A stretch of 64,000 nt of DNA from Opitutus terrae PB90-1 (GTDB lineage: Bacteria; Verrucomicrobiota; Verrucomicrobiia; Opitutales; Opitutaceae). Of this stretch, positions 299-29,995 are shown one piece after another. The notes below the pieces were generated by a model. It had not been told where the DNA came from. It saw nothing but the letters and a program-made list of their open reading frames with translations, and ran no database searches. The stretch covers positions 4,473,001 through 4,537,000 of the forward strand of contig NC_010571.1 of NCBI RefSeq assembly GCF_000019965.1, given 5' to 3'. Both the position numbers and the translations under genes were made by a program. Numbering within the stretch: position 1 is the first letter of the stretch; each line of letters starts with the position of its first letter.

Positions 299-923
299 GG
301 CTATGGTTTGACGCCCGGTTAACCGCCGCTTAAGCCCCCTTAATGCGCGCTCAAAATTCCTCCATGGGGCCTCGGACTGGCGCCTGCCGCATGCGCCGAA
401 TCGTCCCAAAGCTTTGAGAATCCGTCCCAACCCCAACGCGCGCTACTGGGGCTCGGCCCCAACTCGGTTTGTCCTCGGTTTGCCTCCTGTGAAAATCAGC
501 GCCAGAGGCGCTGTCAGCTTAAGGCGTAAAGCTTAAAGCATAAGGCCCAGACCGGTTGGAACAGGAGGAAACGGAGATCGATCCAAGATCCAATCTCCAG
601 ATCCTTGAACCACAGATGGACACGGATGAACACAGATCTAATCCGCGATGATCCGCGTAATCCGCGGTCGGTTTGAGGGCCGGAGCCCCACCTCGGTTCG
701 TCCTTGGTTGCCTTCTGTAAAACAAATCCGACTTGTTTGAACAGGAGTCGATCCGAGGGCGAACCGAGGACAATCCGCCAATCGTTGAAACACAGAGGAC
801 ACGGAGCGTGGTCGCGCGATCGTGCGGGACCGTCGACCGTCCACGGCCTGCCGTCCACCGTTCGCCTGCCGCCGGCTCGGCTCGGCGCTCAACTCTCAAC
901 CCTCAACTCTCAACTCTCCGCGT
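299..923. repeat. Intergenic repeat tract with a 298-bp segment duplicated at 6901
   Basis: No gene is seen. The tract holds a long-loop copy of the dispersed hairpin element (arms CTCCTGT and ACAGGAG, about 485-575), a TTAAGGCGTAAAGCTTAAAG motif near 518, an ACCACAGATGGACACGGATG type motif near 610, a second hairpin copy at about 690-770, then degenerate GTCCACCG and CTCAACTCTC arrays up to the end of topB. Bases 461-758 match 6901-7198 with one difference seen, at 479. Confidence 0.85.
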
Positions 924-3491: not shown

Positions 3492-4120
3492 GAGACGTCA
3501 GATGGTGGCGTCCGCTGCCTCGGGATCCAGCCTCATTCCAGTGGCTCGCTGTGGCGTAAGGCCTAAAGCTTAAGGCGTGAGGCTCGGCCTGATTTAAACA
3601 GGACGAATACCGAAGACGATCCGAGAACGATCGAAATGCACGACACAGAGGCCACGGAGAGCTCAAGCCGAGGGCACAGAGCTCAATCCAATTGGCCCAC
3701 GGAACACACGGAAAACGGTGGACAGTCGGCAGTGGACGGTGGGCCTCGAACTCCAAACTCCGAACCCGAGACTCTGGACTGCGAGCGAAGCGAGCTGCCC
3801 ACGAAACACACGAAAAACACGAAAGGGTAACTGGCAGCTTAAGGCATAAAGCCTAAGGCGTAAGGCTCAGGATGGCGGCCAACCCTCAACGCTCATCTCT
3901 CAACTGAACTGTTTGAACAGGAGTCGATCCGAGGGCGATCCAGCAATCCTTGAACCACAGATGAACACAGATGGACACGGATCCGACCCGTTGACCGCTC
4001 GCCGGGCAAGATCAGAGGTCAGAGTGCAGAGTTCAGATTCCGTTCACCGTCTACTGTCCACTGTTCACCGTCCACCGCCCACCGTCCACTGTTCACCGAC
4101 TACCGTCCCCCGCCCCCTGT
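3492..4120. repeat. Intergenic repeat tract
   Basis: No convincing gene. Contents in order: a GGCCTAAAGCTTAAGGCGTG motif (about 3560), a degenerate hairpin copy (about 3590-3625), a block that is nearly repeated at 12252-12320, CACGAAACACACGAAAAACA motifs (about 3800), another AAGGCATAAAGCCTAAGGCG motif (3843), a hairpin right arm (3905-3940), an ACCACAGATGAACACAGATG motif (3955), and a GTCCACCG array (4040-4130) that runs into the end of the next gene. Confidence 0.8.
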
Positions 4121-6548: not shown

Positions 6549-7370
6549 CCCGCCGGCGTCGAGGTTGGTTTTCGAGACCTGTTCAGTGCGGACGCCTCAT
6601 CCCCGTCCGCTCTCTTGTGCGTTTTGTGAATCCGGCAATTCCGTCTACCGGACCACTTCACTTTCACCCGTCTTCCGCCGTTGCGCCTTTCGCGCCCCTT
6701 TGCTGCTAATCGTTCCGTGTCCTCCGTGTGATCCGTGGGCAGCTCTCGGTTCGTCCTCGGCTTGCCCCCTGTAAAAACCAGATCGGACTTGTTTGAACAG
6801 GAGGCGATCCGAGGTAGATCCGAGCCCAAACCATCGATCCGTGAACCACAGATAAACACAGATGGACACAGATACGGTCCGGGTTGAGGGCTCGAGACCC
6901 AACTCGGTTTGTCCTCGGCTTGCCTCCTGTGAAAATCAGCGCCAGAGGCGCTGTCAGCTTAAGGCGTAAAGCTTAAAGCATAAGGCCCAGACCGGTTGGA
7001 ACAGGAGGAAACGGAGATCGATCCAAGATCCAATCTCCAGATCCTTGAACCACAGATGGACACGGATGAACACAGATCTAATCCGCGATGATCCGCGTAA
7101 TCCGCGGTCGGTTTGAGGGCCGGAGCCCCACCTCGGTTCGTCCTTGGTTGCCTTCTGTAAAACAAATCCGACTTGTTTGAACAGGAGTCGATCCGAGGTC
7201 GATCCGAGAACGATCCGCCAATCCCAGGAGTCGATCCGCGCCGATTCGCGTGATCCGCGGGCGACTCAGAGGACAGCGTTCAGAGTCCAGAGCCCGACCT
7301 CTCTCAACTCTCAACGCTCAACTCTCAACTCCTCCACCCCGCCCACCGTCCACCGCCCACTGTTCACCGG
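6549..7370. repeat. Intergenic repeat tract including the second copy of the 298-bp duplication
   Basis: No gene is seen. A hairpin copy spans about 6745-6825, followed by an ACCACAGATAAACACAGATG motif. Bases 6901-7198 duplicate 461-758 almost perfectly. A CTCAACTCTCAACGCTCAAC array (7300-7330) and a GTCCACCG array (7345-7382) run into the stop of the next gene on the minus strand. Confidence 0.85.
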
Positions 7371-9728
7371 CTACCGTTCACCGTTCGCCTTCCCGATCTT
7401 CATGAATCTCGGCGCACGCACTTCGTATACCAACTCCTCGTTGGTGCGTCCAAATCCAAACTCCAGCGCGACCGGCCGGTTCTCCCTGAACCGCCACGGC
7501 AGATTCGCCCGGTTGTAGAACACCAGCCCGAAGTTCTCCTTCATCTCGAGGTAGGTCGTCCACGCATCCACGGCATAGCTCCACGGCCACACCACGTACG
7601 TGTTGTCGTTGGCCGTGCGCAGCGCGATTTCGAAATACCGGCCGCTGCCCACGCTCGTTCCCGCCGGCTGCGCCAGCCGAAAGTCCAGCCGCAATCCCGC
7701 TTCGTCCGGAAACACGAAATCGTCCGGCAGCGGCAATTGCGCCAGCGCGCGCAAGTAAGGGCCGCTCTCCGGTGCAGGCTGCACCACGAACTGCCAGATT
7801 CCTTCGGACGTCTCGGTCACGGTGACGCCGGGAGTGAGCAGCCAGCGACCGGCCGGGCCCACGGCCGGCTCCTCGCTCGCCAGGGTGCGGCTCAACAGCC
7901 GTTCCCGGTTCCCACTGGCGGTCGCCGGATCGTGCCGCAGCGCCGAAACGACGTGCTCCCGCATGCCAGCCGTATCCGGATAAAACGCCGTGGCGAACAC
8001 CGACGCCGGCTCACCCTCAGTGTCCGGCTCGAAGCGGACCCGCCACTCGGCGCGAGCGAACCGGCTGGCCTGGCGCGCGAACGTCACCGGGACCGCACGA
8101 CGCTCCATCGGCTCGAGTACCAGCGTCTCCGGAATACCCGATATCCGCAGGCCGTTCGCACCGGACGTCTCGGAAACGATCCGGCCGCGCTGCGGCTCGT
8201 GCGAAAAGTTGTACAACACCAGCTCTCCTTCCCACGCGCCCCCCGCCGCCGGCAGCGCGAGATACCCCCGGTACCGCTTTACCTGCGCGATGCCCTTCCC
8301 CGCGATGAAATCGATCACGACCGGCGACGGTTTCGGCGTTGCCACCGTCCAATCCTTGGGCTGATACGGCTGCTTCTCGGCTTGATCGAGCAACCACGCC
8401 AACGCCGGCGTGGCCGCGTTGCCCCCAAACGTCTTCCCGATCCGTTCCGTCCAGTTGGATTGGTTATCGGTTAATTGAGCATGGTTATTGGACTGCGGCT
8501 CCGTCGACCGTTCACCGTCTCCCGTTCCCTGTCCACCGTTCACCGTCTCCTGTCCACTGTTTACCGTCGTCTGTCCACCGTCCCCCGCCTTCCGTCCACC
8601 GTCTACCGTCCCCTGTCCACCGTCCACCGGGACCTTCGTCGTCAGGCCAAATTCGAAAGCCTCACGCTCGTAGTACGGTCGCAGGTAGAACGCCATCGCT
8701 CCGGCAATCCTTTCTTCCCGAATCTGCGCGGCCACATCGCGGAACCACTGCCACTGACGGGTGCGTCCTTCCACGGTCTGCGCGCTCACTCCGGTCAGCC
8801 CGCCGTAGCCGTATTCGGTCAGGATCACCGGCAGTTCCCGCCGGACCTGCGTCGCGTCCGCCGACGCGGGCAGCGAAGCTTCTTCCGCGACCACGCGAAA
8901 CAGATGATACACGCGCGAGAAATCTTCCGCGTAACCGTAGTAATGATAGTTGAACGCGTCGGTGTAGCCCCAGAATCCGTTCGCGACCATCGCTTCGAAG
9001 AATGGTCCGGGCGGGAACCCGACCGGTGCCATGACCGCCCGCGTTTCCCGGCCGGGTTGCACCTGTGGGATGCTGCCGAATCCCGGCAGCGAGAGCAGGG
9101 ATTCCCAGCTTGGTGATGGTGTCCGGCCCGATTCGCGCACGCCGAGGTAACAAGCCTTCAGGAACGCCGTGTAGGTCTCCGGATTTTCCGCGACGAACAT
9201 CAGGTCCGGCTCGTTATCGAATTCGAGCGCGGCCACGACATCGCCGTACGCGCCGGCTTGCCGGCGGGCGCGCTCGAACGCCTCGCGCAAATCCAGCGGC
9301 GTTCTCCGCCCTGCTCGCGGCCGAACTCCGTTCGTCCAGTGGCTATTCGCCCAGCTCACCAGCGGCACGGAATGAAAGCCGAGCTCGCACAAGCGTCCGA
9401 GCGCCCGCCGTTCCTGGTGCACCGCCCATGCCCGTTTCGCCGCCGTCCACGGATTGCCGACCGCCCATCGTCCCCTGTCCTCCGTAGGCTTGGCGAAGGA
9501 GGAATCGTCCACCGTCCACTGTTCACTGTCTGCCGGCTGCGGCACGTTTCGAATCCGCAGCCACGCGCCGGTCGCGCCCCAGCGGGCCAGCTCGACCGGA
9601 TCGGTGGTCTCGATCAACTGCTTCGCGGTGAGGCCGGTGTCGATCCCGCCGACGGAGGCTCGACGTTCAGACGCCGACGCGCACGACAGCAGGAGGGCAA
9701 TAACCGGTATCCAGAGGCGGGAGATCAT
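7371..9728 (-). CDS. Secreted clan GH-A glycoside hydrolase-like protein with repeat-derived inserts
   Basis: 785 residues from the ATG at 9728. The N-terminus MISRLWIPVIALLLSCASA is a signal peptide with a possible lipobox (LLSC). Residues about 25-360 resemble a clan GH-A (beta/alpha)8 glycosidase: EFDNEPD holds the likely acid/base Glu (about residue 173) and LTEYGYGG the likely nucleophile Glu (about 305), with FNYHYYGY between. The C-terminal half looks like beta-sandwich accessory domains. The exact GH family and substrate are unclear. Two stretches are translated intergenic repeats: one at about 9440-9545 (WTVDDSSFAKPTEDRGRW) and a 41-codon run at about 8508-8630 with VDGG/TVNGGQ-type repeats. 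Both are in frame, so the gene is probably functional with tolerated linkers. Pseudogenisation is the alternative. Confidence 0.75.
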   Translation of the reverse strand: MISRLWIPVIALLLSCASASERRASVGGIDTGLTAKQLIETTDPVELARWGATGAWLRIRNVPQPADSEQWTVDDSSFAKPTEDRGRWAVGNPWTAAKRAWAVHQERRALGRLCELGFHSVPLVSWANSHWTNGVRPRAGRRTPLDLREAFERARRQAGAYGDVVAALEFDNEPDLMFVAENPETYTAFLKACYLGVRESGRTPSPSWESLLSLPGFGSIPQVQPGRETRAVMAPVGFPPGPFFEAMVANGFWGYTDAFNYHYYGYAEDFSRVYHLFRVVAEEASLPASADATQVRRELPVILTEYGYGGLTGVSAQTVEGRTRQWQWFRDVAAQIREERIAGAMAFYLRPYYEREAFEFGLTTKVPVDGGQGTVDGGRKAGDGGQTTVNSGQETVNGGQGTGDGERSTEPQSNNHAQLTDNQSNWTERIGKTFGGNAATPALAWLLDQAEKQPYQPKDWTVATPKPSPVVIDFIAGKGIAQVKRYRGYLALPAAGGAWEGELVLYNFSHEPQRGRIVSETSGANGLRISGIPETLVLEPMERRAVPVTFARQASRFARAEWRVRFEPDTEGEPASVFATAFYPDTAGMREHVVSALRHDPATASGNRERLLSRTLASEEPAVGPAGRWLLTPGVTVTETSEGIWQFVVQPAPESGPYLRALAQLPLPDDFVFPDEAGLRLDFRLAQPAGTSVGSGRYFEIALRTANDNTYVVWPWSYAVDAWTTYLEMKENFGLVFYNRANLPWRFRENRPVALEFGFGRTNEELVYEVRAPRFMKIGKANGER
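8508..8630. repeat. GTCCACCG-type array inside the glycosidase gene
   Basis: About 120 bases of the degenerate CCGTCCACCGTCTACCGTCC array, the same type as in intergenic DNA at 4040-4130 and 7345-7382. It lies within the minus-strand glycosidase frame and is translated as a Gly/Asp/Thr-rich low-complexity run. Confidence 0.85.
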
Positions 9729-10730
9729 CGGCGCGGTGAGGGACATCAGCCCAGAGCCCAGAGTCAAGTGTCCAGAGCCGCTCCGTGCCTAGGGCACGGA
9801 GGACGGTGGACGGTGGCCGGTGAACAGTGGGCGGTGGACGGTGGGCGGTAGACGGCCAATCACGCGAATGGCGCGAATCAGGGTAGCCCACGGAACACAC
9901 CGACGACACGGAAAACACGAAAACGGGTTTGTTTTGAACAGGAGTCGACCCGAGATCGAGCCGAGACCAATCCCGATCCTCGGATTGCTGCTCGTGCCTT
10001 CAGCCCTCGGCTCTACTCGGTTTGCCTCCTGTAAAACCAGATCGGACTTGTTTGAACAGGAGTCGATCCGAGGTAGATCCGAGCCCAAACCATCGATCCT
10101 TGAACCACAGATGAACACGGATGCACACGGATCAATCCGTGATATCCGTGTAATCCGTGGTCGGTTTGACGGCTTGGAGCCTTACTCGGTTTGTCGTCGG
10201 TTCGTCTCCTGTAAAACCACTCCGGTTTGTTTGAACAGGAGCCGATCCGAGGTCGATCCGAGTTTGGCCACAAAAGGCACAGAAGGCACACGGATCAATC
10301 CGTGATTTCCGTGTAATCCGTGGTCGGTTTGACGGCTTGGAGCCTTGCTCGGCTCGTCCTCGGCTTGCCTCCTGTGAAGTCCAATCCGGTTTGTTTGAAC
10401 AGGAGGAATACCGAGGTCGATCCGAGTTAGCCCACTAAACACACGAAAAACACGAAAGGGTAACTGGTATTGCTCTTGCGCCTTTTGCGCCTCTTTGCGG
10501 CCACTCCGTCTTTCGTGTCGTTCGTTTTTAGAGGTCTCTCCCGGTTCGAAGTCCGTGTTGTTCGGGTGCTCCATGGGCAGTTCGCGTTGCTCGCAGGTCC
10601 GAGTTCGCCTCTCAACCCTCATCCCTCAACTCTCAACTTCTAGTCGCCCCTTTCACCGTCTCTGTTTGCCAAAGACACGGAAAAACGTCGAAATCAGTTC
10701 CCGGACCTCTTGTGTGGACCGTTCCAGCTG
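9729..10730. repeat. Long intergenic repeat tract with a three-unit composite tandem array
   Basis: No gene is seen. After a GGACGGTGGACGGTGG array (9795-9855) and CACGGAACACACCGACGACA motifs, hairpin copies occur at about 9930-9965 and then three times at about 165-170-bp intervals (10014, 10183, 10348). They are separated by ATCCGTGTAATCCGTGGTCG blocks, which makes a composite tandem array at 10014-10430. CTCAACTCTCAAC repeats (10612-10640) close the tract before the sugar transferase gene. Confidence 0.85.
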
Positions 10731-12146
10731 ATGCACACGCGAGAACGCAACGCCCGCCTTGCCCGCAAACTCGTCAAGATCACCATCCTCGGCGACACCT
10801 TGGCGTGCTTCGGCGGCTTGAGCCTCGGCTACTGGCTTCGCTTCAAGAGCCCTCTGCGCGCGCTGGGGATCGAGCCCAATCTTGCGTCCTCCTATGGGGA
10901 CTATTTCAACCTCATCCAGCTCGGCACGCTGCTCTTCATCGCCTCGTATTCGTTCCAGCGGCTCTACGAACCTCGCTGCCTGCTGCGACCCGAGCAAAGC
11001 CTCTGGATCATCATTCGCGGAACGTTTTTCTGGGTACTGCTCTTCCTCGGGTTCTCGCTCGCGCTCAAGTTCGAACCCTCCGTCTCCCGGATCTTCGTGG
11101 TCATCAGCAGCGTCACCTCCGTGGCGCTGCTGAGCGCGTGGCGCTTCCTGTTCTACCTGTGGGTGGCACAGCCCAAGGTGCACGATCGCCTGGTCGACCG
11201 CGTGGTGCTGGTCGGCTGGAATCGCGAGGCGCGCGCGCTGGCCCTGGCCGTCCGGCGCCGGGAAAACCGGCCCTATGACATCATCGGGCTCGTCGCCACC
11301 GAGAAATCGGAGACCGATCCCGGCCCGCCCGTGCTCGGCTTCGTGCGCGACATCGATACGGTGCTGCGCCGGCACCAGCCGTCGATGGTTATTGTGACTG
11401 ACCCCGATCTATCGCGCGAGGAGTTACAGCGAATCTCGAGCGCGTGCGAACGGCTCTACGTCTATTTCAAGATCGTGCCGTCCGCCTTCCAGGTGTTCGT
11501 CTCGAATCTCCAGATGGAGACCGTATCCGGCGTCCCGGTGCTGGGCTGGGGCCGACTGCCGTTGCGCGACCTGCACAATGCGGCACTGAAGCGCGCGATG
11601 GACATCTTCGGCGCACTGGTCGGTTTGATTGGCGCAATGCCGATCATGATCGTGCTCGCGCTGCTGATCAAGCGGGAGAGTCCCGGCCCCGTGCTCTACT
11701 ACCAGACCCGTACGGGACTACACGGCCGGCCATTCCGGATCTACAAGCTCCGCTCGATGCGCAAGGATGCCGAAGCCAAGACCGGGGCCCGCTGGGCGGT
11801 GCCGAACGACAACCGCCGGCTCAAGATCGGCGCGTTCATGCGCGAGTGGAATCTCGATGAACTGCCGCAGTTCTGGAACATCCTGCGCGGGGACATGAGC
11901 CTGGTCGGCCCGCGACCCGAGCGGCCGGAACTGATTCGTGAATTCGAAAAACGGATCCCGCACTACAATCCGCGGCACGAAGTGCGCCCGGGGTTGACCG
12001 GCTGGGCGCAGGTCAACGGGCTCCGCGGCGACACCAGCCTGACCGAACGTATCCGGTACGACCTGTACTATATCGAAAAGTGGTCGCTCTGGTTCGACAT
12101 CCAGATCATGGCGCTGACGTTCCTGCGCAGGCAGAATGCGTACTGA
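10731..12146 (+). CDS. Polyprenyl-phosphate glycosyl-1-phosphate transferase (exopolysaccharide priming enzyme)
   Basis: 471 residues from the ATG at 10731; a TTG at 10710 in the same frame is less likely. The N-terminal half has four or five membrane segments (GDTLACFGGLSLGYW onward) and a Rossmann-like CoA-binding-type region (VVLVGWNREARALALAVR). The C-terminal bacterial sugar transferase domain shows KRAMDIFGALVGL, FRIYKLRSMRKDAE, LDELPQFWNILRGDMSLVGP, RPE and RPGLTGWAQVNG. It transfers a sugar 1-phosphate to undecaprenyl phosphate at the inner membrane and so starts a repeat unit. The glycosyltransferases that would extend it are probably those at 18-25 kb, about 6 kb away on the other strand. 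The sugar (glucose, galactose or N-acetyl form) cannot be told. Confidence 0.93.
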   Translation: MHTRERNARLARKLVKITILGDTLACFGGLSLGYWLRFKSPLRALGIEPNLASSYGDYFNLIQLGTLLFIASYSFQRLYEPRCLLRPEQSLWIIIRGTFFWVLLFLGFSLALKFEPSVSRIFVVISSVTSVALLSAWRFLFYLWVAQPKVHDRLVDRVVLVGWNREARALALAVRRRENRPYDIIGLVATEKSETDPGPPVLGFVRDIDTVLRRHQPSMVIVTDPDLSREELQRISSACERLYVYFKIVPSAFQVFVSNLQMETVSGVPVLGWGRLPLRDLHNAALKRAMDIFGALVGLIGAMPIMIVLALLIKRESPGPVLYYQTRTGLHGRPFRIYKLRSMRKDAEAKTGARWAVPNDNRRLKIGAFMREWNLDELPQFWNILRGDMSLVGPRPERPELIREFEKRIPHYNPRHEVRPGLTGWAQVNGLRGDTSLTERIRYDLYYIEKWSLWFDIQIMALTFLRRQNAY

Positions 12147-12632
12147 ACGGAGATGAGAGTTGAGGGTTGAGAGTTGAGAGTCGTGGGAGCGCGGACGGCT
12201 TCGTCCGCAGGTAGGGCGCGTTATCCCTAACGCGCCGCCTCCGGGGTCGATCGGTCCGAGAACGATCGAAATGCAGGACACAGAGGCCACGGAGAGCACA
12301 AACCGAGGGCACAGAGCTGATCACTGTAACCACAGATGGACACAGATCCGTGGAATCGGTGGTTGGTTAGGGAGCTCGGGCGTTGACTCCGCCTGTCCTC
12401 GGTTCGTCTCCTGTGAATCCAAACCGGTTTGTTTGAACAGGAGGCGATCCGAGGCCGATCCGAGGACGATCCGCCAATCCTAGGAGCTGTCGCTTCGCTC
12501 GGTAACGCGGGCAGCTCGCTGGGCGGAGATCAGAGGGCAGAGTTCAGAGCCCGACCTCTCTCAACCCTCAACTCTCAACTTTCCCATCACCGTCCACAGT
12601 CCACCGTTTTCCGTCCACCGGACTCGTCTCGC
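12147..12632. repeat. Intergenic repeat tract with GTAG-headed palindrome
   Basis: No gene is seen. A GAGTTGAGGGTTGAGAGTTG array (12155-12180), a palindrome around GCGGACGGCTTCGTCCGC (12185-12208), and a GTAG-headed palindrome GTAGGGCGCGTTATCCC with its arm (12211-12236) come first. Next are a block nearly identical to one at 3618-3690, a hairpin copy (about 12395-12470), a GCTGTCGCTTCGCTCGGTAA motif repeated at 38347, and CTCAACTCTCAACTTTC and GTCCACCG motifs. Confidence 0.8.
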
Positions 12633-13226: not shown

Positions 13227-13425
13227 ACCGCGAACCCGCGGTGCTCTTGCCTCGGATCGCCCTTGGTATTCCTCCTGTTCAAACAGACTAGGCCTTACGC
13301 TTTAAGCTTTATGCCTTAAACTGACAGCGTGTCGCGCTGATTCTCACAGGAGCCGAGCCGAGGACAAACCGAGGAAATCGCGCCAAGAGGCGCAGAAGAA
13401 GCAGCGGCGGCGGTGAACGGCCAAC
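13227..13425. repeat. Short repeat tract with an inverted hairpin copy
   Basis: A hairpin element in the opposite orientation (ATTCCTCCTGTTCAAACAGA, about 13250-13280), an inverted TTTAAGCTTTATGCCTTAAA motif (13300), and the left part of another hairpin copy (CAGGAGCCGAGCCGAGGACA, 13348). No gene. Confidence 0.75.
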
Positions 13426-14872: not shown

Positions 14873-14942
14873 GCGGTTCCTCCTACGCCAAGCCTTCCTC
14901 CTACGCCAAGGCTTCCTCCTACGCCAAGGCTACGGAGGACAA
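14873..14942. repeat. 18-bp iterons (CTTCCTCCTACGCCAAGG)
   Basis: Three consecutive TTCCTCCTACGCCAAG(G) units followed by CTACGGAGGACAAGACGGAG. The same arrangement with two units (CTTCCTCCTTCGCCAAGG) occurs at 16973-17025. A single related unit sits inside the glycosidase gene near 9481-9508. Confidence 0.85.
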
Positions 14943-15118
14943 GACGGAGGACAGGGGACGGTGGACGGTGGAACGGTAGGCGGTAGACCGGATACAAGTG
15001 TCGCACCGTCCGCATTACATTGGTATTGCAAAGCGCGGGCGTTTCTGTCTGGGTACCATACCCGCGTCTGTGCACCGGCAGCAGTCCAGGCTGCGGATGC
15101 GCCCCACCCCCACTGCGC

Positions 15119-16006: not shown

Positions 16007-16513
16007 GGAGTAAGGCTTAAAGTCTAAGGCTCGGACTGGTTTAAACAGGAGACGATCCGAGGGAGAACCGAGATCCAATCGAGATTGGCCGCAAGAAGGC
16101 GCAGAACGGTGGACAGTCGACGGTGGACGGTAAACGGGGGACGGGGGACGGTGGACAGTTGACGATAGACGGAGGACAGGGAGCGGTGAAGCGGTAGACG
16201 GTGGGCGGTGCTCCGTTTAGCTGGGAGCCGAGTGTCAGAGCCCGATCTACAGTCGATCACGCCGGCCCGGCTCTCAGCTCTGGACTCTCAGCTCTCAACT
16301 CCGCCTGTCCTCGGTTTGCCTCCTGTAAAATCAGATCGGATTTGTTTGAACAGGAGTCGACCCGAGGTCGATCCGAGGACAATCCGCCAATCCTTAAACG
16401 ATGGACACAGATCCGTGACCATTCGTGCGAGTCGCGCTGCGGGCATAGCCCTGCCCCGTCGAGCGCTCCGCGCTTTGGCCTCTGACTATCGCCTGCCGTC
16501 TATGGTAGTCCGT
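16007..16513. repeat. Intergenic repeat tract
   Basis: No gene is seen. An AAGGCTTAAAGTCTAAGGCT motif, a hairpin right arm (16035-16070), a GGACGGTGGAC-type array (16105-16205), then a block at 16237-16387 nearly repeated at 38050-38190, which includes a full hairpin copy (16308-16380). GTCTACCGCCC-type repeats lead into the VanZ-like gene. Confidence 0.8.
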
Positions 16514-16906
16514 CTACCGCCCGACCATCGGCCGTCTGCCGCCCACGGTCCATCGCCGACTGTGGACCGTCCACCGAATCGCCTCAACCACGGCGGCGGC
16601 GAGCGCAACTCCGAGCCACGCTGCGGCCACGTCCCGCAGGTCACAGAACCGGGTGGGAATCCACAGCTGCGCGATCTCGCACACCAGTGCGAACGCGGCG
16701 ACGCCTGCGTAGCCTCGCACCCGTCGCTGGCGCGATTCGGCGAGCAGTCCCACTACGAGCGCCAGGAAACCGAACGCCGGTATATTCCGGAGCACGCCGG
16801 AGCGGTTCGTCCATTCCGCGACGGAATCCGGCAGCCATAAAAACTCGGCGACCCGTGGCGAGCTGCGCACGCTAAGAGCGGTCATCGCCAGGATCAATAG
16901 CAGCAC
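16514..16906 (-). CDS. VanZ-like membrane protein with repeat-derived ends
   Basis: About 130 residues if the GTG at 16906 is used. The frame stays open upstream to 17197, but that part is translated repeat DNA. Hydrophobic segments GLVLLLILAMTALSV, NIPAFGFLALVVGLLA and VAAFALVCEIAQLWIPTRF are followed by CDLRDVAAAWLGVALAAAVV. The F-A-L-x-C-E-x-x-Q-x-W-x-P-x-R pattern with a following D-x-x-D is typical of the VanZ family. The last 15 or so residues (HSRRWTVGGRRPMVGR) are again translated GGTGGACGG-type repeat, so the original stop was probably lost. VanZ-like proteins are often found near surface polysaccharide genes. The role is not defined. Confidence 0.65.
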   Translation of the reverse strand: MLLLILAMTALSVRSSPRVAEFLWLPDSVAEWTNRSGVLRNIPAFGFLALVVGLLAESRQRRVRGYAGVAAFALVCEIAQLWIPTRFCDLRDVAAAWLGVALAAAVVEAIRWTVHSRRWTVGGRRPMVGR

Positions 16907-17314
16907 CAGTCCGCGACCGAGAACGACGGTGGACAGTCGACGGGAGACGATCGACTGTAGACGGTGGGCGGTTCCTCCTTCGCCAAGCCTTCCTCCTTCG
17001 CCAAGGCTACGGAGGACAAGACGGAGGACGGGAGACGGTGGACAGTGGCGGTCGGCGGTGGACGGAAGACGGTGGGCCGTTGACGTTCGCTGCGACGGCC
17101 GCATCTCTGCTTCGCACGGAAACTCGGAAACAAAGGTGGCGGAATGGAGCGAGTTGCCGGGCTGCATGGCTGCGGGTGTGGCAAAAATTCGGCACATCCG
17201 CCCGATTCTGGAGCGCGTCTGACGTCACCTCTCGCTCATCTTGGGATGGCAAATGGCCTTGCCCGTCGCGCCGACAAAATCCTCAAGCGCAACGCTCCAT
17301 AGTACCGATTTACG
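16907..17314. repeat. Repeat tract ending at the border of the polysaccharide island
   Basis: GGTGGACGG-type arrays (16925-16970 and 17025-17090) enclose two 18-bp iterons and the CTACGGAGGACAAGACGGAG tail (16973-17025). From about 17100 the sequence loses repeat character. No gene is seen. This marks the left edge of the repeat-free island. Confidence 0.7.
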
Positions 17315-18130
17315 TTATTCCGGGGCAGGGTTGAACCCCGAAACAACCAGCCCACTCGGTTGGAGTCGCTCGAAGACTCCCTGCAACGCAGGCTCGCTCC
17401 AGATTTCCGAAAGCGGACGCGAGCTCGCAATCCGCACAAAAAACTGCTCGCCGCCCAGAGATCTGTGTTCCTTGCCAAACAACCGCCACATGAACGTCAG
17501 CTTGGGGAAACCGTACCTCCACATCTCCACAGCTCGTCCGTCCAGCAGGTGCCAGAACGCAACGTGTTGCATTGTCCCGCCATTAACGAAGGACCTCAAC
17601 TGGCCAGCCGCGGTGCGGGTCCCGGGCGTAAAGCCCCGGAAATTGTCGCGAGCTTCGGTTGCAGTCCATCCGTTGGTACCCCAGCAAGTATCGGGCGTGT
17701 GAGCATTGACCGTGCGGAGATCGACCTTCCCGGCACTCCAATACGCCACATAGATCGTAAATTCAGCCGGTCCGTTGCGAAAGTGAAGGTAGGTAAAATC
17801 ATCATACCGAAGCGTGCGACTGACCATTTCGCTCCCGAGCTCCGTTTCACTCAAGGGAAGCTCGGTGGTCGACCAACCTCTCGGCTGATAAGCGCGTAAC
17901 GCCGGCACCACCAACGCTGCCACCGGAGGTGTTTGGGTTTCGTACCGCAGTCGAAACCGAATGGTAACAACAAATCCGAGGACGAGCGTGCCAAGTGCCA
18001 CGGCCAGCCCCACATACCGCCACCACCGGTGACTCCGCCATCCGGCCTTCGGTCGGTTTGTTCCTGTGATATACATCCGACCGTCTGATGTTGAGACCTC
18101 TTCTAATGGGGGCCCCTTATTCCCGGCCAT
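17315..18130 (-). CDS. EpsI-like exosortase-associated protein (DUF3485 type)
   Basis: 271 residues from the ATG at 18130; an in-frame ATG at 18076 gives 253. A basic N-terminus precedes one membrane segment (YVGLAVALGTLVLGFVV, about residues 39-55), then an extracytoplasmic domain. The motif AHTPDTCWGTNGW (about residue 155) matches the H-x-P-x-x-C-x-x-x-x-G-W signature of EpsI/DUF3485 proteins, which accompany exosortases and act in exopolysaccharide production and PEP-CTERM surface sorting. It is the last gene of the minus-strand polysaccharide operon and overlaps the preceding glycosyltransferase end. No exosortase gene is visible in the window, which is unusual because the two are often adjacent or fused. 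Confidence 0.8.
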   Translation of the reverse strand: MAGNKGPPLEEVSTSDGRMYITGTNRPKAGWRSHRWWRYVGLAVALGTLVLGFVVTIRFRLRYETQTPPVAALVVPALRAYQPRGWSTTELPLSETELGSEMVSRTLRYDDFTYLHFRNGPAEFTIYVAYWSAGKVDLRTVNAHTPDTCWGTNGWTATEARDNFRGFTPGTRTAAGQLRSFVNGGTMQHVAFWHLLDGRAVEMWRYGFPKLTFMWRLFGKEHRSLGGEQFFVRIASSRPLSEIWSEPALQGVFERLQPSGLVVSGFNPAPE

Positions 18131-19341
18131 TCTCCGACTGACCTAGCATTCGCACCCAGAACAAGGGGGACTATCGCGTCCTGCCCTACGTCCGGCCAAC
18201 AGTAGTCTCGGAAAAGTTCCGGATACCAGCGCGTCAACAAAGTTTTGATTTCTGTCCTAAACCGCTCAGGTCGAAACCGCTCCGCGTTAGCGCGGCATCG
18301 CCGTGGATCGTACCGCCCTTCGAACTCAGACTCAAAACGGCATATAGCATCAGCCAATGCTTTGGGCGTCTGCTCCTCGAAAAATAAACCTGTAGACCCC
18401 TCGATCACCGTCTCCAATGCGCCACCTTTTCGATACGCGATCACAGGACGTCCAGCAGCCTGCGCTTCCACAGCTGTAATGCCGAAGTCTTCAACTTGAG
18501 GATAAAGAAACGCGCGACAGCACTCCATGAAGTTCTTCACCACTGCGAATGGCTGCCGTCCTAGAAATTCCACCGTCGGCCCAGCAATACGCTTGAGGCG
18601 GTCGAGTTCCGATCCTTCTCCGACTACGACAAGATTTCGGCCAAGCATCGTACACGCAGTGACCGCGAGATCGACTCGTTTATAGGGGACAATGTGGCCA
18701 ACGACTAGGTAAAACCCCGCCGATTGCTTGTCCGGCGTGAAGTCGTCCACCGCGACAGGTGGATAAACGACCATCGATTCGCGACCGTAGCACTTCTGAA
18801 TCCTTTCCGCCACAAATCGTGAATTTGCTATGAAATGATCGACGCCCTGCGCCGCCTGATAGTCGAATTTCCTAGAAGTAGCTGCCACGAACTTGAACAG
18901 GAATCTGCCGAACGGACCGAGATCGCGGGCGTATTCTGTGTACTCGCTAAGCATGTCCCATAAATATCTCGGAGGGCTATGGCAATAGCATACATGTCGC
19001 GCTCCTGCGGGGACCCGCACCGCCTTAGCCAGACTAGCGTCACTGGACAGCACCAATCTTGCGAAGCGGGGGACGCGTAAGCTTCGAAACGCCCGAGCGT
19101 GCAGTGGCAGCAACATCTTGTAGCACCAGCGAGCACCCGGTATCCACTGTATCCATGAGGTTATGATAACATTTCCACCAATCCAGCTGGGTATTTGCCC
19201 GCGAAAACTTATGAGCGTCATGATCGGCGCATCCGGGAAAAGGCGCCGAAACTCGCCGAGCACCTTCTCGCCGCCTCTATAAGTCACCAACCAATGGTGA
19301 ACCAGGACACTAAATCCTTTATCCTGTGCGTATGTCGTCAT
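18103..19341 (-). CDS. Glycosyltransferase family 4
   Basis: 412 residues. GT-B fold enzyme: an N-terminal acceptor domain (VLVHHWLVTYRGGEKVLGEF) and a C-terminal nucleotide-sugar domain with the E-x7-E motif in PQVEDFGITAVEAQAAGRPV, preceded by VVGHIVPYKRVDLAV and VVVGEGSELDRL. It resembles WbaZ-type mannosyltransferases, but donor and acceptor are not established. It adds a sugar to the lipid-linked repeat unit on the cytoplasmic face. 22 bases separate it from the upstream methyltransferase. Confidence 0.92.
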   Translation of the reverse strand: MTTYAQDKGFSVLVHHWLVTYRGGEKVLGEFRRLFPDAPIMTLISFRGQIPSWIGGNVIITSWIQWIPGARWCYKMLLPLHARAFRSLRVPRFARLVLSSDASLAKAVRVPAGARHVCYCHSPPRYLWDMLSEYTEYARDLGPFGRFLFKFVAATSRKFDYQAAQGVDHFIANSRFVAERIQKCYGRESMVVYPPVAVDDFTPDKQSAGFYLVVGHIVPYKRVDLAVTACTMLGRNLVVVGEGSELDRLKRIAGPTVEFLGRQPFAVVKNFMECCRAFLYPQVEDFGITAVEAQAAGRPVIAYRKGGALETVIEGSTGLFFEEQTPKALADAICRFESEFEGRYDPRRCRANAERFRPERFRTEIKTLLTRWYPELFRDYCWPDVGQDAIVPLVLGANARSVGEWPGIRGPH

Positions 19342-19363
19342 CTATTGGAACATATGCACCTGC

Positions 19364-20083
19364 TCACATAATAGTCTGAAGTCCCTCATTTAGGTACTTG
19401 CACTGATACGACATCAGCGGGTTGCCGGTTCGTTCCAGTACCCACACCGATGTATGACACGCATCAGTCCAAAACCGAGCCAATAAATTCCCACCAAACT
19501 CGGGCCGGAGCGGATAAAAGCCGACGCCAATCAGCGCCTTTAGCTTATATAGTCCGTGCCCAACACAGAACTCTGTAAACGCTCGCTGACTAAATCCGCG
19601 TACGTGCGGTCCCCATATCCGAATTGACGAGGGCTGATAGCCACACAGCAACATCGCCCTATTATGAAGGCTGGCCAAATTTGGAACCGAAAGGATCACT
19701 ATTCCCCCAGGCCTAACGACACGGGCAATCTCGTCAAATGGACGGAAAATGTTCTTTAAGTGCTCGAGCACTTGATTACAGACCACCACGTCGAAACGAC
19801 CAGTCTCCATCCCAAACTCCTGCTCTTCAATATCGATTATCTTCACCTTAACACCGAGAAGTTCAGCCTCCCGGGCAGGCTCAGCCATCGCCTCCACGCC
19901 CCAGATATCTATCGCCGCAATAGTACGAGCATAGCCTAAGGTCGTTGCGCCGTTCCAGCAGCCAACGTCAAGCAATGCCCCCTTCCGCATAGCGTACTTG
20001 GAGAGACATCTGTTGATCGTTTTGTTCAGGGCAATATGTATGCGGGTGCAACGTTTCATTTGAGTATTCGGTGATGCGATCAC
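19364..20083 (-). CDS. Class I SAM-dependent methyltransferase
   Basis: 239 residues. Motif I LLDVGCWNGATTL (about residues 37-49) binds SAM. FDVVVCNQVLEHLKN and RVVRPGGIVILSVPNLASLH are the usual motifs of the Methyltransf_11/23 type. The ATG overlaps the stop of the upstream glycosyltransferase by 4 bases (ATGA). In this operon it probably methylates a sugar of the polysaccharide or caps the chain. The exact substrate is unknown. Confidence 0.88.
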   Translation of the reverse strand: MIASPNTQMKRCTRIHIALNKTINRCLSKYAMRKGALLDVGCWNGATTLGYARTIAAIDIWGVEAMAEPAREAELLGVKVKIIDIEEQEFGMETGRFDVVVCNQVLEHLKNIFRPFDEIARVVRPGGIVILSVPNLASLHNRAMLLCGYQPSSIRIWGPHVRGFSQRAFTEFCVGHGLYKLKALIGVGFYPLRPEFGGNLLARFWTDACHTSVWVLERTGNPLMSYQCKYLNEGLQTIM

Positions 20084-21177
20084 ATGATGCGCCCAACCTG
20101 AAGACTAAGGAGACCCGTGTACACCTTTTCGACGTTGGCCGCGACACGCTCGATCGAATGATTCTGTAGAACCTGTGCAATCGCAGACCGACGCAACATT
20201 TCGTAGCATTGCTGGTCGCGAACGCACTCCCAAATCCAATCTACAGCGGAGTCTGGGGCATCTCGCGAAAACAGGAAGCCGTTTGCTCCACGCCTCACGA
20301 CGTCCCGGTTTCCCGACACGTCCGTTGCAACCGGTACGGCACCTCTGACCATACCTTCTAGAAGCGCCAACGACATCCCCTCCCAACGCGAGGTATTCAG
20401 GATAAAAGCCGGTGAACCCCACGACCAGACGTCCGCGACAATGCCGTGCATTACCACAGCACTGCCTAACGCCTTGATAGCAGTCCTCCCGAAATCGCTA
20501 GTCGCGTCTAGTCCCTCACCAAAAAAGTGAAATCGAAACCTACTCTCGTTGCCGCAACGTTGTATCAACTGGCGTGCAATGAACAGCGCGAGCACGGGAT
20601 CTTTCTGCCAATTGTCTCTACCCACAAAGTAGACGTCAACGCGCCTCGTCACGTCAGCCACAACGCTCGACAGCGGAGGCGCCACGCCGTTCGGAATCAC
20701 CATTGTCGCACCGTACTTCAATGTGCCCATGAACTCGATTTGCTCAGATTTCGATACAAACAATGTGCATCCGGAAAGGAGTATACCGACTCCCTCGACC
20801 AATCGCTGAAACCAACGATGGGCTCCGGCCGCAAAATGGCATCCGTGTGGGGTATGAATGACCACGCACCGGGCCGCCAAGCAAATGATTTTCGAATATG
20901 CACCGGCTCCTCGGCCATGGGAATGAACTACAATTGGCCCTCGTGTCTCATGGATCAGCTTAAGCATGGTCCAAATGTGGACAAAAGAGAGACTCCGGTG
21001 CGGCATGTCGACGAATGAGACGCCGGGGACGCTCGCAGAAACTCGGGCCCGGAATACAGGCACGTTTGGGCACGCGAACACATAAGAGCAGCCACTGTGA
21101 CTGAGCGCCGCAATTTGCCGCATGTACTCCGGGCCTCCGCCGGTGTCAGCCCTGGCCGATATGGATAGTACGATCAA
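20080..21177 (-). CDS. Glycosyltransferase family 4
   Basis: 365 residues. The N-terminus MIVLSISARADTGGGPEYMR has the Gly-rich acceptor loop of GT4 enzymes. IVVHSHGRGAGAYSKII and HTPHGCHF follow. The C-terminal domain has VYFVGRDNWQKDPVLALFIA and, in place of a perfect E-x7-E, LNTSRWEGMSLALLEGMVRG with both Glu present. It overlaps the upstream polymerase by 32 bases. Role: sugar transfer in assembly of the surface polysaccharide. Donor not identifiable. Confidence 0.9.
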   Translation of the reverse strand: MIVLSISARADTGGGPEYMRQIAALSHSGCSYVFACPNVPVFRARVSASVPGVSFVDMPHRSLSFVHIWTMLKLIHETRGPIVVHSHGRGAGAYSKIICLAARCVVIHTPHGCHFAAGAHRWFQRLVEGVGILLSGCTLFVSKSEQIEFMGTLKYGATMVIPNGVAPPLSSVVADVTRRVDVYFVGRDNWQKDPVLALFIARQLIQRCGNESRFRFHFFGEGLDATSDFGRTAIKALGSAVVMHGIVADVWSWGSPAFILNTSRWEGMSLALLEGMVRGAVPVATDVSGNRDVVRRGANGFLFSRDAPDSAVDWIWECVRDQQCYEMLRRSAIAQVLQNHSIERVAANVEKVYTGLLSLQVGRIM

Positions 21178-22534
21178 CTACGGTTCCTTTCGTCTCACGG
21201 GACGGGGTCCGTTTGGCGTCCGTCCACAACCTGGCCAGCCTTTTCGTCGACTCCTGCGGGCAAACGAGCTGTCTGTCGACTTCCCAAAGGAGTGGCAACA
21301 GTGAAAGAAAATAGTACGTCTCTACTAGAAGCAGAAAACTGAGCATCCCGGTGAAACAGGCGCACCTCAGGCACCCGACCCCAGCCGCTCGAGGAAGGAC
21401 ACGCAGCCTAATACCGCCAAATATTAAAGCGCCCATGGTGAGCACCCCAATCACACCGCTTTGAACGCACACGTTCGCAAATGCATTCATCATCCCATAT
21501 ACGCCATTAGGAATGCGCCTCAGCATCTCGGCATTAGGGGAGAAACCCGCAGGCGCGGAGAATACTTCACTCACGCCAGAAAACCCCGCGCCGAACGGGA
21601 ACCGTGTGACGTGTTCGAGGGTGAAACGCCAATGAAGAAGACGAGATCCGGTGCCGGTGCCGCTGGTGTTGGCGAACGTCAGCAGTTCACGCACACCTGC
21701 AAGTTCAGCTTCAAGGTAGCCGCGAGACCGACTAACCAACGTGAACCCAATCGCGGCGGCTACAAGGAGGACCGCTATGCCAATCACACGTAGTCTTCGC
21801 TCCCGGGACGGAAATCGGATAGCAGCGACGACCAGAAAAGGGGCAACCACTACGCAGATTGTTACTCCCGCTTTGCTCAATGGAACAAGCACGCCAAGTG
21901 CGGCGACGACCATGCACAGGAGTACCATCCCCGTGGCGGTAGGGGCCCGTAGTACCTTTTGCTGCTCCGCCGCCAAAGCGGCACAGCCGCTCAGCAGCGA
22001 AAGCAAAACTAACGTGGCCGACAGAGTGCTCGCCTCGCCGAAGAGAGCGCGCAGCCTCTCAGTGCTGCCGTATTGCATGAAAAATGAATCCATTCCGCCG
22101 TACCTGTCTTGGTAGTTCGGAAGCATATCACGAATGTATACCCCCATCGCTTCGGGAGCCATTGGAAGCGCTGCCACAATTGCAGCACACAAGGGGATTA
22201 GCGCGCAGCGGAACACACCAACCCGATGGAACACGACCAGGGAAATGCTGAACACACTGACCTGCGGCAGCCAAAAACCTAATATACCGATGAGGTTGTC
22301 CGAAGCTCCGGCATTGATGAACTCGGCGGCCACCGCAGCAAGCGGAAGTAGTCCCACCAGAAACAAGCCGCCTATTGCAATTCTCTGGAACACCGTCAAC
22401 GCCAAGGCCGTGGCAAGTAAAACAATATGAACCCACCAAGGCACATACAAGATCGGCGCACACCATAGAAGGATCAGAACTACGGCCGAGGCATTCGATA
22501 CAGCCTGCGTCGTTGTTCTTTTTGGTCTATTCAT
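21146..22534 (-). CDS. Wzy-like O-antigen/exopolysaccharide polymerase
   Basis: 462 residues, with about ten to twelve hydrophobic segments from residue 13 onward (AVVLILLWCAPILYVPWWVH, LALTVFQRIAIGGLFLVGLL). A long polar loop around residues 270-340 contains LLHWRFTLEHVTRFPFGAGF and GVSEVF, similar to Wzy/O-antigen ligase loops. It probably polymerises flipped repeat units in the periplasm. It sits between glycosyltransferases in the operon and overlaps the upstream gene by 8 bases. Wzy proteins diverge strongly, so the call rests on topology and context. Confidence 0.8.
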   Translation of the reverse strand: MNRPKRTTTQAVSNASAVVLILLWCAPILYVPWWVHIVLLATALALTVFQRIAIGGLFLVGLLPLAAVAAEFINAGASDNLIGILGFWLPQVSVFSISLVVFHRVGVFRCALIPLCAAIVAALPMAPEAMGVYIRDMLPNYQDRYGGMDSFFMQYGSTERLRALFGEASTLSATLVLLSLLSGCAALAAEQQKVLRAPTATGMVLLCMVVAALGVLVPLSKAGVTICVVVAPFLVVAAIRFPSRERRLRVIGIAVLLVAAAIGFTLVSRSRGYLEAELAGVRELLTFANTSGTGTGSRLLHWRFTLEHVTRFPFGAGFSGVSEVFSAPAGFSPNAEMLRRIPNGVYGMMNAFANVCVQSGVIGVLTMGALIFGGIRLRVLPRAAGVGCLRCACFTGMLSFLLLVETYYFLSLLPLLWEVDRQLVCPQESTKRLARLWTDAKRTPSRETKGTVVDRTIHIGQG

Positions 22535-23474
22535 GGCCCTTTTTTAAGGATTCACAAGGCGGGCGAACAGGGCTGAGCCGACGCGCCACCTGACAACAAT
22601 GCGAATAGATGCCGGGCAGGCAGGCACGCACGAACAACCTGCATAGGCTAGCGGCGCCTAACCTAGCCGCCGCCACATATTTGACAAATGTACCGCTCGC
22701 CCTGCAAAACCCGTGTCGACTCCGGATCTGCGGCACTACGACTCGCAACCAGAAACATGCCTCGGCCCTGCGCGACAGCCGGCCAACCGATTGCGCCCAC
22801 GCGATGCTGTAGTCGTAATCGCTGTCGTTTGAGATCCGCCCGAGTTTTGCTCGTCCATGGTACACGGCGAGTGTCTCGCCGCAGCAATCTAGTTGAATTT
22901 TCGCCGCCTGAGCCCTTATAGCGATATCCCAATCTTGATGCTTGGCCAGTCCGTCACGGAACGGCACCTGTAACCAGACCTCCCTCGGTGCGAGCAATGT
23001 CGATGTTTGAATATTGCATCCAGCCACGAAGAGATATTCCGCGACGTCCTCCCCTCTAGCGATTGCTCTGACGGGCCTGGGCCGCTCAGGTCCACCATCG
23101 TCCACCAAAATGCGATGATAGCTGATCACCCCGGTTGGCGCCATTGCGATATGTCGTAGCTGAGCTGCCAGCTTATTGGGGTACCATTCATCGTCTGAGT
23201 CGAGAAACGCGACGAATCTCCCCCGACTTTGATTCACGCCAACATTGCGTGCCCTAGCGGCGCCAAACGGGGAGTTGAGTCTCGACACGATCACCCGCTC
23301 GTCCAAGAACTCGGACCCAAGCGCTGAATCGATCGGCTGTAAGGACGCATCGTCGATGATACGCACCTCGATATCGTTACACGTCTGAGCGAGCACTGAT
23401 CTCAGCGCACGGCGCAGTTCAATAGGGCGATCTCGCACTGGGATAACAACGGAGACTAGTGGATGTCTCGACAT
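22527..23474 (-). CDS. Glycosyltransferase family 2
   Basis: 315 residues. GT-A fold: PLVSVVIPVRDRPIELRRAL and IEVRIIDDAS start the nucleotide-binding half, and VAFLDSDDEWYPNKL holds the DxD-type motif (about residues 96-99). RARNVGVNQSRG is the usual segment between. CETLAVYHGRAKLGRIS lies in the acceptor half. It transfers a sugar to the polysaccharide repeat unit in the cytoplasm. Tightly linked to the polymerase downstream (8-base overlap). Confidence 0.92.
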   Translation of the reverse strand: MSRHPLVSVVIPVRDRPIELRRALRSVLAQTCNDIEVRIIDDASLQPIDSALGSEFLDERVIVSRLNSPFGAARARNVGVNQSRGRFVAFLDSDDEWYPNKLAAQLRHIAMAPTGVISYHRILVDDGGPERPRPVRAIARGEDVAEYLFVAGCNIQTSTLLAPREVWLQVPFRDGLAKHQDWDIAIRAQAAKIQLDCCGETLAVYHGRAKLGRISNDSDYDYSIAWAQSVGRLSRRAEACFWLRVVVPQIRSRHGFCRASGTFVKYVAAARLGAASLCRLFVRACLPGIYSHCCQVARRLSPVRPPCESLKKGHE

Positions 23475-23489
23475 GGCGCCGTTTCTGGC

Positions 23490-24284
23490 TCAAAAGCCTT
23501 TCGGGCGCTTCGCGTGCTGCGTCCTGCCTTTTCTCGACTGCCAACCGGGTGCTACCGAGTTTATGCAGGTATGCCTGACCCACGCTCTCGCAAGTTGCAC
23601 GGAAAGATTCCAGATGTCGCGCGCGCGCATCTGCTCTCGGTTGTTCAGCTTTCGCAAAAAGTACCGTACCATTACTTGGTGAGACGCCCAGTCTCTCCTG
23701 CTACTGCGCCCGCCCCAATGAAATTCCGCCACCGGAAATCCCAAGTGATGGAACTCGGCCCAACGATCGAGTCGTAACCAGAGATCATAGTCCATCCCCA
23801 ACAGAAGCCGTTCGTCATACTGTTCTCGCATGGCCAGTTCCCGCCCGATGAACACTGATTGGTGATTAATGCTATTTGCGATCTGAATCGTATCGCGATT
23901 AGCATGCCGCAGATGCCTGAACCCATCACCGGCTTCGTAAAAATCACCATACACGACTATACGATTCGCATTTAGCCTTTCTAGAACGGGCGAAACCCGC
24001 ATCAGAACATCTTCCCTTGCGTATATATCGCCCGAGTTCAAGTAGCTAATCCAGCGACCAGTTGCGAGACGGGCGCCGAGATTCAGGGCCGCCGAGATTC
24101 CTCCGTCGCATAGCCCGGTGGCTGCTGGACCGGATCCCACTACTTCCAAATCCGAATCAGTCGCACCTACTACTACCCACTCAATATCGGGGCAGTTCTG
24201 TTGCTGTTCAATCGAGGCTTTCGTCCTGACGAGTCCAATCCGATCTGCCTTCGTAATGGTTACAATAGAGAGTAATCTGCTCAT
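23490..24284 (-). CDS. Glycosyltransferase family 2 (WcaE-like group)
   Basis: 264 residues. LLSIVTITKADRIGLVRTKA, then IEWVVVGATDSD, and GRWISYLNSGDIY. The NSGD motif replaces the usual DxD, as in the WcaE/colanic-acid-type branch of GT2. NHQSVFIGRELAM, then LLLGMDYDLWLRL and a following FHHLG, are also characteristic of that branch. The ATG overlaps the stop of the upstream GT2 by 4 bases. Substrate unknown. Confidence 0.9.
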   Translation of the reverse strand: MSRLLSIVTITKADRIGLVRTKASIEQQQNCPDIEWVVVGATDSDLEVVGSGPAATGLCDGGISAALNLGARLATGRWISYLNSGDIYAREDVLMRVSPVLERLNANRIVVYGDFYEAGDGFRHLRHANRDTIQIANSINHQSVFIGRELAMREQYDERLLLGMDYDLWLRLDRWAEFHHLGFPVAEFHWGGRSSRRDWASHQVMVRYFLRKLNNREQMRARDIWNLSVQLARAWVRHTCINSVAPGWQSRKGRTQHAKRPKGF

Positions 24285-25222: not shown

Positions 25223-25224
25223 GT

Positions 25225-26888: not shown

Positions 26889-26897
26889 GGTGGATGG

Positions 26898-26985
26898 GGA
26901 CTGATTATTGGTTATTGGTGGCTGATGCCGTTGCGGATGATCGCATCCTAATAACCAACAACCTTCATCCAATAACTCCGTGCCG
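26898..26985. repeat. Inverted ATTGGTTATTGG/CCAATAAC repeat
   Basis: GATTATTGGTTATTGGTGGC at the left and CTAATAACCAACAACCTTCA with CCAATAAC at the right form an imperfect long inverted repeat just upstream of the polysaccharide operon. Related ATTGGTTATCGGTTAATT DNA lies in the glycosidase gene near 8458. Confidence 0.6.
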
Positions 26986-27088
26986 CTTCGCGGCACGGCT
27001 TCGCCCCGTCACTTCTGGGAGAAGCAACCGAGGCGACAGGCTCGCCGTGTATCAGCATCGCTGGACGGGCTACGTCGGCGCACCTTGG

Positions 27089-29959: not shown

Positions 29960-29965
29960 GTTTGG

Positions 29966-29995
29966 GCGGCCGGACGCAAGTCCGGCCGCTTTTTT
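29966..29995 (+). terminator. Rho-independent terminator of tRNA-Arg
   Basis: A 10-bp perfect stem GCGGCCGGAC/GTCCGGCCGC with GCAA tetraloop, followed by six T. It starts 6 bases after the tRNA. Confidence 0.93.

Follow-up and report, generated by a model that had tools for sequence, protein, structure and literature searches.

The window, that is, the whole stretch of DNA analysed here, comprises 64,000 nucleotides (positions 4,473,001 to 4,537,000) of the single 5,957,605-bp contig that makes up the genome of Opitutus terrae PB90-1, and the gene gaps of one ~40-kb stretch of it hold accumulated hairpins. Each short-loop hairpin joins a first arm of the right-end type, CTCGG-N5-CCTCGG-N5-CTCCTGTRAAA, through a loop of ~20 nt to a second arm of the left-end type, TTTGAACAGGAG-N5-CCGAGG-N5-CCGAG; individual copies deviate somewhat from this block consensus, and the second word of the first arm can also be CTCGG, as in the trio copies described below. 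The preliminary description of this DNA had placed three tandem units at 10014-10430, and they are present as plus-strand short-loop hairpins at 10000-10084 (89.1 bits), 10179-10263 (91.9 bits) and 10342-10427 (82.7 bits), spaced 163-180 bp apart, each matched by a covariance model and supported by its fold. The arms pair as had been claimed: five copies folded singly each formed a long stem interrupted mainly by 1x1 mismatches, with fold z-scores of -5.1 to -6.0 for three copies from this genome but of only -1.7 and -2.6 for copies from two other genera.

The exact pattern CCTCGG-N4-6-CTCCTGT-N10-28-TTTGAACAGGAG-N5-CCGAGG has 4 matches in the window, and a relaxed version (one mismatch per block, last gap N4-6) has 13, all on the plus strand, while none of 20 first-order Markov shuffles matched it. 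The covariance model, trained on 18 copies, recovered the same 13 and added three long-loop copies, for a total of 16. Besides the trio, the short-loop copies lie at 686-769, 6739-6825, 7126-7209, 12381-12465, 16293-16378, 27919-28004, 28115-28195 (shortened loop), 37823-37907, 38106-38191 and 38415-38500. The long-loop copies, whose loops of ~70 nt would, like the short ones, leave no room for a GxxExxY ORF, lie at 457-588 (+), where a TTAAGGC-type heptamer array separates the arms, at 6897-7028 (+), mostly within an exact duplication, and at 13250-13379, the only copy detected on the minus strand of the window. A pair of inverted hairpins (12.4 and 13.3 kb) surrounds an HTH_3 ORF and a second ORF that lacks a Pfam match; a cassette reading of this pair was considered and rejected. 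Right arms also occur without a left arm, at 3915-3950 (+) and starting at 9936, 16043, 28339 and 38215, with weaker ones near 3593, 30031 and 30397. The window holds 20 right arms by the counting rule used, plus a few weaker ones, so that the "more than twenty places" first reported apply at best to the right arm, the whole hairpin being found at 16.

A fixed downstream set of blocks, also part of the first account, did not hold up: ACAGATG and/or ATCCGTG, counted within 140 bp of a right arm with mismatches allowed, follow only 9 of the 20 right arms and are therefore no fixed part of the element. One such block, ATCCGTGTAATC, has a single exact occurrence. The tandem unit can also be read with its heads outward, since a TTTGAACAGGAG arm, an inner ACACGGAT/ATCCGTG pair and a CTCCTGTAAAA arm form a single nested stem at 10040-10225 (+; MFE -85.2 kcal/mol, z -5.9). 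Its inner inverted 9-mer array at 10104-10162 (+), ACCACAGATGAACACGGATG...ATCCGTGTAATCCGTGGT, resembles the arms that bound GxxExxY genes elsewhere. A left-type end lies within 330 bp of 11 of the 20 right arms, and the heads-out lengths range from 89 to 280 bp, whereas the stretch running from CTCCTGT to GAACAGGAG measures 36-38 bp in 13 of 14 short-loop copies, which identifies the hairpin as the coherent unit. Elsewhere in this genome, at 2910637-2910900, two heads-out units with a TTTGAACAGGAG head and GCAGAG-type words lie about 150 bp apart.

Genome-wide, the strict pattern gave 10 matches, all on the plus strand and all between 4,433,180 and 4,511,478, and the covariance model placed at least 16 copies, of which 14 fall within 4.433-4.512 Mb, all best on the plus strand in the short-loop form. 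Among the matches listed, the two beyond the cluster, at 528 kb and 3,324 kb, are on the minus strand, and at 1,353 kb a DNA search revealed a further right arm. The lone 528-kb copy sits inside a ~115-bp gap between two minus-strand frames. The term "dispersed" used at the outset therefore suits this lone copy and the relative G017 (24 places or more, spread over 17 contigs), but it needs qualifying for the present genome, where 14 of the 16 listed places are clustered. The claim that copies cluster in gene spacers was borne out: none of the 20 right arms lies within any of 28 listed genes, whose combined extent amounts to 75% of the first 39 kb. This gene list is our own compilation, in which short frames overlapping the repeats were omitted and the GFO_IDH start was set at 28430; the mechanical start at 28243 would place the right arm at 28339 inside the gene. 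Within the cluster, copies occupy convergent, divergent and co-directional gene gaps alike.

A 279-bp segment at 480-758 (+) is repeated identically at 6920-7198 (+), and the identity ends inside hairpin arms, the pattern expected from recombination or gene conversion between hairpins of the same orientation. Recombination or gene conversion between copies best explains the local, same-strand spread, and such strong local clustering is not predicted by transposition alone. The spacers themselves are longer here than in two relatives, whose genes were compared through the best 15 candidates at most per genome. The spacer between tRNA-Arg(acg) and recJ, at 29960-30482, is filled with repeats and spans 523 bp, compared with 52 bp in G003 and 74 bp in G006, and the yajC-argDC alignment gap is 259 bp here and 11 bp in G003. 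Because the relatives have the shorter spacers, the repeats here look like additions. The order in both G003 and G006 is recJ and then tRNA-Arg(acg), the two pointing the same way, while here the tRNA is inverted relative to recJ (29883-30483); at least one rearrangement breakpoint thus lies in or beside the repeat spacer.

Several other features of the window were observed along the way. A glycosyltransferase/O-antigen cluster at 16514-27000 has a GC content of ~0.56-0.58, against 0.62-0.68 around it, and looks like an acquired island; it has an S23/TIGR02436 gene at one end, and groups of same-orientation hairpins lie at 16.0-16.4 and 27.9-28.4 kb. This free-standing S23/four-helix-bundle gene (TIGR02436/PF05635) occupies 26505-26996 on the minus strand. 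An 18-bp tandem repeat, TTCCTCCTACGCCAAGGC, occurs at 14877-14971 and 16972-17048, and a GC-rich palindrome, CACGGGCGAGACGCCCGTGCCAC, is found four times beyond the hairpin region (48360, 49438, 57233 and 60597) as a separate repeat.

The same local features also raise the question of whether any mobile element is needed, as host replication and recombination might make and spread quasi-palindromes by template switching, slippage and gene conversion. Local copies on one strand, an exact duplication that ends inside the arms, composite spacers made of several array types and the absence of a detected target-site duplication would all fit such an origin. However, copies with similar loops on 17 contigs of G017, together with the unlinked single copies of the present genome, call for the copying of a defined unit, and we regard a purely host-made origin as unlikely.

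Across the family Opitutaceae, the covariance model found places in 13 of 150 genomes including this one, or in 12 of the 149 others; the best 30 candidates at most were scored per genome, so that the counts are lower bounds. The matches of some relatives are weak (E up to 6e-4) and carry different arm words. The copies of G017, at no fewer than 24 places, are scattered, unlike the clustered copies here. The 23 of these places that were fetched contain one hairpin each within ~550-700 bp, with a similar loop, and in 14 of the 23 hairpins the heads read CTCCTGTAA (or CTCCGGTAA) and CACAGGAG, as in the cassette L180 of the present genome (see below). One G017 place (C33:11689) was left out of the analysis, as were some weak places in G006, G473, G372 and G003. 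In G035, the arm sequences of the copies differ yet still pair, and the mismatch spacing is similar. One further hairpin of that genome (L056, contig C95) has a right arm that ends early after AACAGGAGAAAA, with an IS3-type transposase-like frame, recognized by eye, shortly after; this is probably an insertion into a hairpin.

G074 contains 202 occurrences of a sister form whose heads read TTTGAACAGRAG or TTGGAACAGRAG (0 in the backward control) and G232 contains 30 (4 in the control), on both strands, while in G035, G017 and G210 the head word was not clearly above the backward control. Several loci of the G074/G232 type are gene-less heads-out units of the form TTTGAACAGAAG-array-array'-CTTCTGTAAAA, and among the loci read in these two genomes no gene was found between AACAGRAG heads. 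At L077, a heads-out pair of 380 bp overlaps a 145-codon frame without Pfam match. Searches of plasmid and phage collections with 10014-10430 gave no match. The one match of a genome-contig pattern scan, in Ohtaekwangia, had no left arm in view and was taken as chance, and several further pattern matches look like chance or coding matches.

The statement that the arms vary together was examined at two levels. Among 18 sequences, 86.4% of cells pair, compared with 80.2% after shuffling, and changes on both sides were seen in 16 cells, compared with 4.4. In the larger set of 65 places, retained from 144 model matches after dropping the duplicate loci L181, L194 and L208 and keeping a single strand per place, 106 double-change cells were counted against 44.8 in shuffles, and none of 200 shuffles reached as high; since the alignment was fitted to the model structure and the shuffles ignore relatedness, this cross-genus figure is not a probability. 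Within single genomes the excess disappears, with 2 double-change cells against a shuffled mean of 1.4 for the 19 copies here, 1 against 0.5 for the five copies of G446, and 6 against 12.2, below the shuffle level, for the 23 copies of G017. Between lineages, then, the two arms change as a pair, whereas copies inside one genome show independent drift of the arms; the original statement is confirmed at the first level and not at the second. Its corollary, a structured element, stands as far as a dispersed hairpin with arms complementary across genera is meant, but not in the sense of a structural constraint on each copy. More generally, strong cross-species covariation can arise by joint replacement of both arms rather than by selection on each copy, which calls for caution in reading such signals.

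These data bear directly on whether the hairpin could be a cis-acting structured RNA (a regulator, attenuator or processing signal) under selection at each site. Stable folds and covariation between lineages would suit such a role. The lack of covariation within genomes weakens a per-copy RNA function and fits two arms that are inverted copies of one short word, and the constant plus orientation, whatever the direction of the neighbouring genes, likewise argues against a cis-acting RNA. In addition, Rfam at its gathering threshold matches only two tRNAs in the window, and no promoter- or terminator-like site was found at 9700-10800. We therefore consider a cis-acting RNA decidedly improbable.

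In most cases, inverted arrays of short words also surround the genes of two abundant families, GxxExxY (PF13366, in 102 of 120 family genomes) and S23/four-helix-bundle (PF05635, in 99 of 120), as compact cassettes. GxxExxY genes are associated with repeats of this kind, and the association is borne out here for the inverted arrays and in part for the ACAGRAG head. The present genome encodes four GxxExxY (PDDEXK_3) proteins, all of which match TIGR04256, and inverted word arrays are visible by eye at all four. All four genes are compact cassettes, two of which have heads similar to those of the hairpin. The first, L178 (3,046,813-3,047,157), has the ends TTGAACAGAAGGCCACGAAGGGAACGAAG ... CTTCGTTTCCTTCGTTCCCTTTTGTTCAA and the heads TTGAACAGAAG... 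and ...CTTTTGTTCAA, the right head containing CTTTTGT and not CTYCTGT; the second, L180 (1,990,800-1,991,132), has the ends TTTTCACAGGAGAGCGCAGAGGAAGCAGAG ... CTCTGCTTCCTCTGCGGCCTCCTGTAAGG and the heads TTTTCACAGGAG... and ...CCTCCTGTAAGG. Among 79 S23/GxxExxY loci scanned (six of them truncated and taken at approximate positions), these two alone have an ACAGRAG-type head at either side, and the CCGAGG arm words are absent from all 79, even with up to three mismatches allowed. G017 has two GxxExxY matches, and the one read has different ends.

The inverted flanks themselves were compared with shifted and mispaired controls at 27 of 30 loci per set, three being left out for a length below 2,900 bp. 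With S23, 22 of 27 loci outscored all 81 shifted controls, and with GxxExxY, 21 of 27 exceeded their 95th percentile, although one shifted GxxExxY control scored 76, above every real locus. When flanks were mispaired between loci, those above the 95th percentile numbered only 7 of 27 for S23 and 13 of 27 for GxxExxY, a smaller margin that follows from different loci sharing words. S23 flanks are often heptamer arrays, such as GGAGTCA repeats on one side and TGACTCC on the other, and 7-mer arrays were found at 10 of 30 S23 loci compared with 4 of 39 control loci. GxxExxY flanks, judged by eye, are mostly 9-mer arrays (e.g., ACCACGGAGAACACGGAG ... CTCCGTGTTCTCCGTGGT), often apparently inside operons. 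At loci L087-L116, free-standing S23/IVP genes lie between inverted heptamer arrays, L116 apparently, by eye, between gyrB and gyrA.

The remaining spacer repeats of the window (ACAGATG/ATCCGTG, CACGAAAG, GCGAATGGC, GTTGAGA and TTAAGGC) resemble cassette arms as well, which suggests that the spacers are stacks of gene-less cassette ends. No mobilising enzyme, one of the things that the preliminary description had proposed to look for, was found, and the GxxExxY cassettes are the best candidate. A solved-structure search with one GxxExxY protein found nothing, and PADLOC returned one weak match. More broadly, free-standing GxxExxY and S23 genes may be the cargo or motors of widespread mobile cassettes of ~0.45 kb, with inverted arrays of 7- to 11-base words, that insert harmlessly into operon spacers. 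The intervening sequences (IVS) of 23S rRNA would then be the S23 version in rRNA, and the hairpins and repeat-word spacers of the window gene-less descendants. We put this wider scheme forward tentatively, as a possibility that falls well short of even odds.

Alternatively, a MITE-like hairpin could have been moved by an unrelated transposase, its ACAGRAG likeness being a convergence of G/A-rich words. The lone, scattered copies of G017 with their similar loop would suit this, and the cassettes differ from the hairpin in several respects: the head is common to 2 of 79 only, the arm words to none, and the heads of L178 and L180 face outward while those of the hairpin face the loop. However, Y1_Tnp, the sole transposase family searched, is separated from every full hairpin found by 48 kb or more, and both head-sharing cassettes belong to this same genome. 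An unrelated transposase accordingly appears improbable to us.

Our preferred reading, to which we assign a probability of roughly 0.45, is that the element is a non-autonomous, MITE-like imperfect hairpin of ~85 bp that resides in gene spacers and is a gene-less relative of GxxExxY cassette ends. It draws on the hairpin structure, the distribution, the orientation bias, the covariation across lineages, the similar heads, the copy ends inside arms and spacers longer than those of two sister genomes. The cassette machinery of GxxExxY, or an activity linked to it, may have inserted the original hairpin, and the element may then have spread regionally through host recombination or gene conversion among copies of the same orientation. 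Such local copying would yield composite spacers in which hairpins are joined to other cassette-end arrays. Among 23 G017 copies, whose exact element ends are defined only to within several bases, no target-site duplication was detected (4.35 compared with 4.12 nt; 69 of 500 shuffles equal or higher). Spacers in several phyla commonly contain degenerate short-word arrays and hairpins, which usually go unexplained. If the link to the cassettes is true, such arrays gain an origin, two abundant gene families acquire a role that can be tested, and the long-standing puzzle of rRNA intervening sequences becomes connected with the arrays. In the open-licence literature on O. terrae, Verrucomicrobia repeats, S23 and GxxExxY, as far as its accessible text extends, no description of the hairpin or the cassettes was found.

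Among known systems, REP/REPIN sequences with their RAYT are comparable in that they too are multi-copy hairpins in spacers; the present genome has four Y1_Tnp matches, and O. terrae is reported to be rich in GTAG repeats in a paper (PMC3733652) that defines the family by a tetranucleotide, GTAG (or CGTC), tagging one end that stays unpaired. The present hairpin has no such end tag: GTAG occurs in 2 and CGTC in 10 of 14 copies, and in none of the 14 near the hairpin end. It also has longer arms with periodic mismatches and does not lie beside Y1_Tnp genes, whose loci lack such a hairpin in the 3.2-3.3 kb read. Exact AACAGGAG occurs once, within the Y1_Tnp match of L043, and other palindromes, judged by eye, adjoin three of the four Y1_Tnp loci. 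The hairpin is not a GTAG-type REP, and the GTAG repeats of O. terrae are a different family; membership in the wider REP/RAYT (GTAG or CGTC) palindrome family is very improbable.

The hairpin has several traits of a MITE, being ~85 bp long, bounded by inverted ends, without ORF and multicopy (at least 16 copies here and 24 in G017). Correia/CREE (NEMIS), ERIC and RPE elements are likewise short, gene-less, inverted-repeat sequences, multicopy in spacers and foldable if transcribed. They differ from the hairpin in that its target duplication was not detected, its arms are short-word arrays whose two sides change jointly from one lineage to another, and no transposase is linked to it. Neisseria CREE repeats are reported to be RNase III substrates (PMC2649163). 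For the 23S rRNA IVS of Coxiella, tandem heptamers ahead of the S23p start, a terminal stem of 28 bp and cleavage by RNase III have been described (PMC4990558). By analogy with both, the present hairpin, if transcribed, would form a long imperfect stem and be a plausible substrate of RNase III. The 23S rRNA IVS with its S23p ORF has inverted ends around a small ORF, like the S23 cassettes here with their frequent heptamer arrays, whereas the hairpin has no ORF, lies outside rRNA and is built from words of ~11 nt. Cyanobacterial STRR sequences are degenerate tandem 7-mers in spacers; the hairpin arms, in contrast, are inverted 11-nt words, and 7-mer arrays occur as their neighbours. Comparable, too, are the GxxExxY (TIGR04256/PF13366) cassettes, two of whose four representatives in this genome combine ACAGRAG-type heads with word-array arms, although these cassettes carry a gene, outward heads and other arm words, while the hairpin carries no gene and turns its heads toward the loop.
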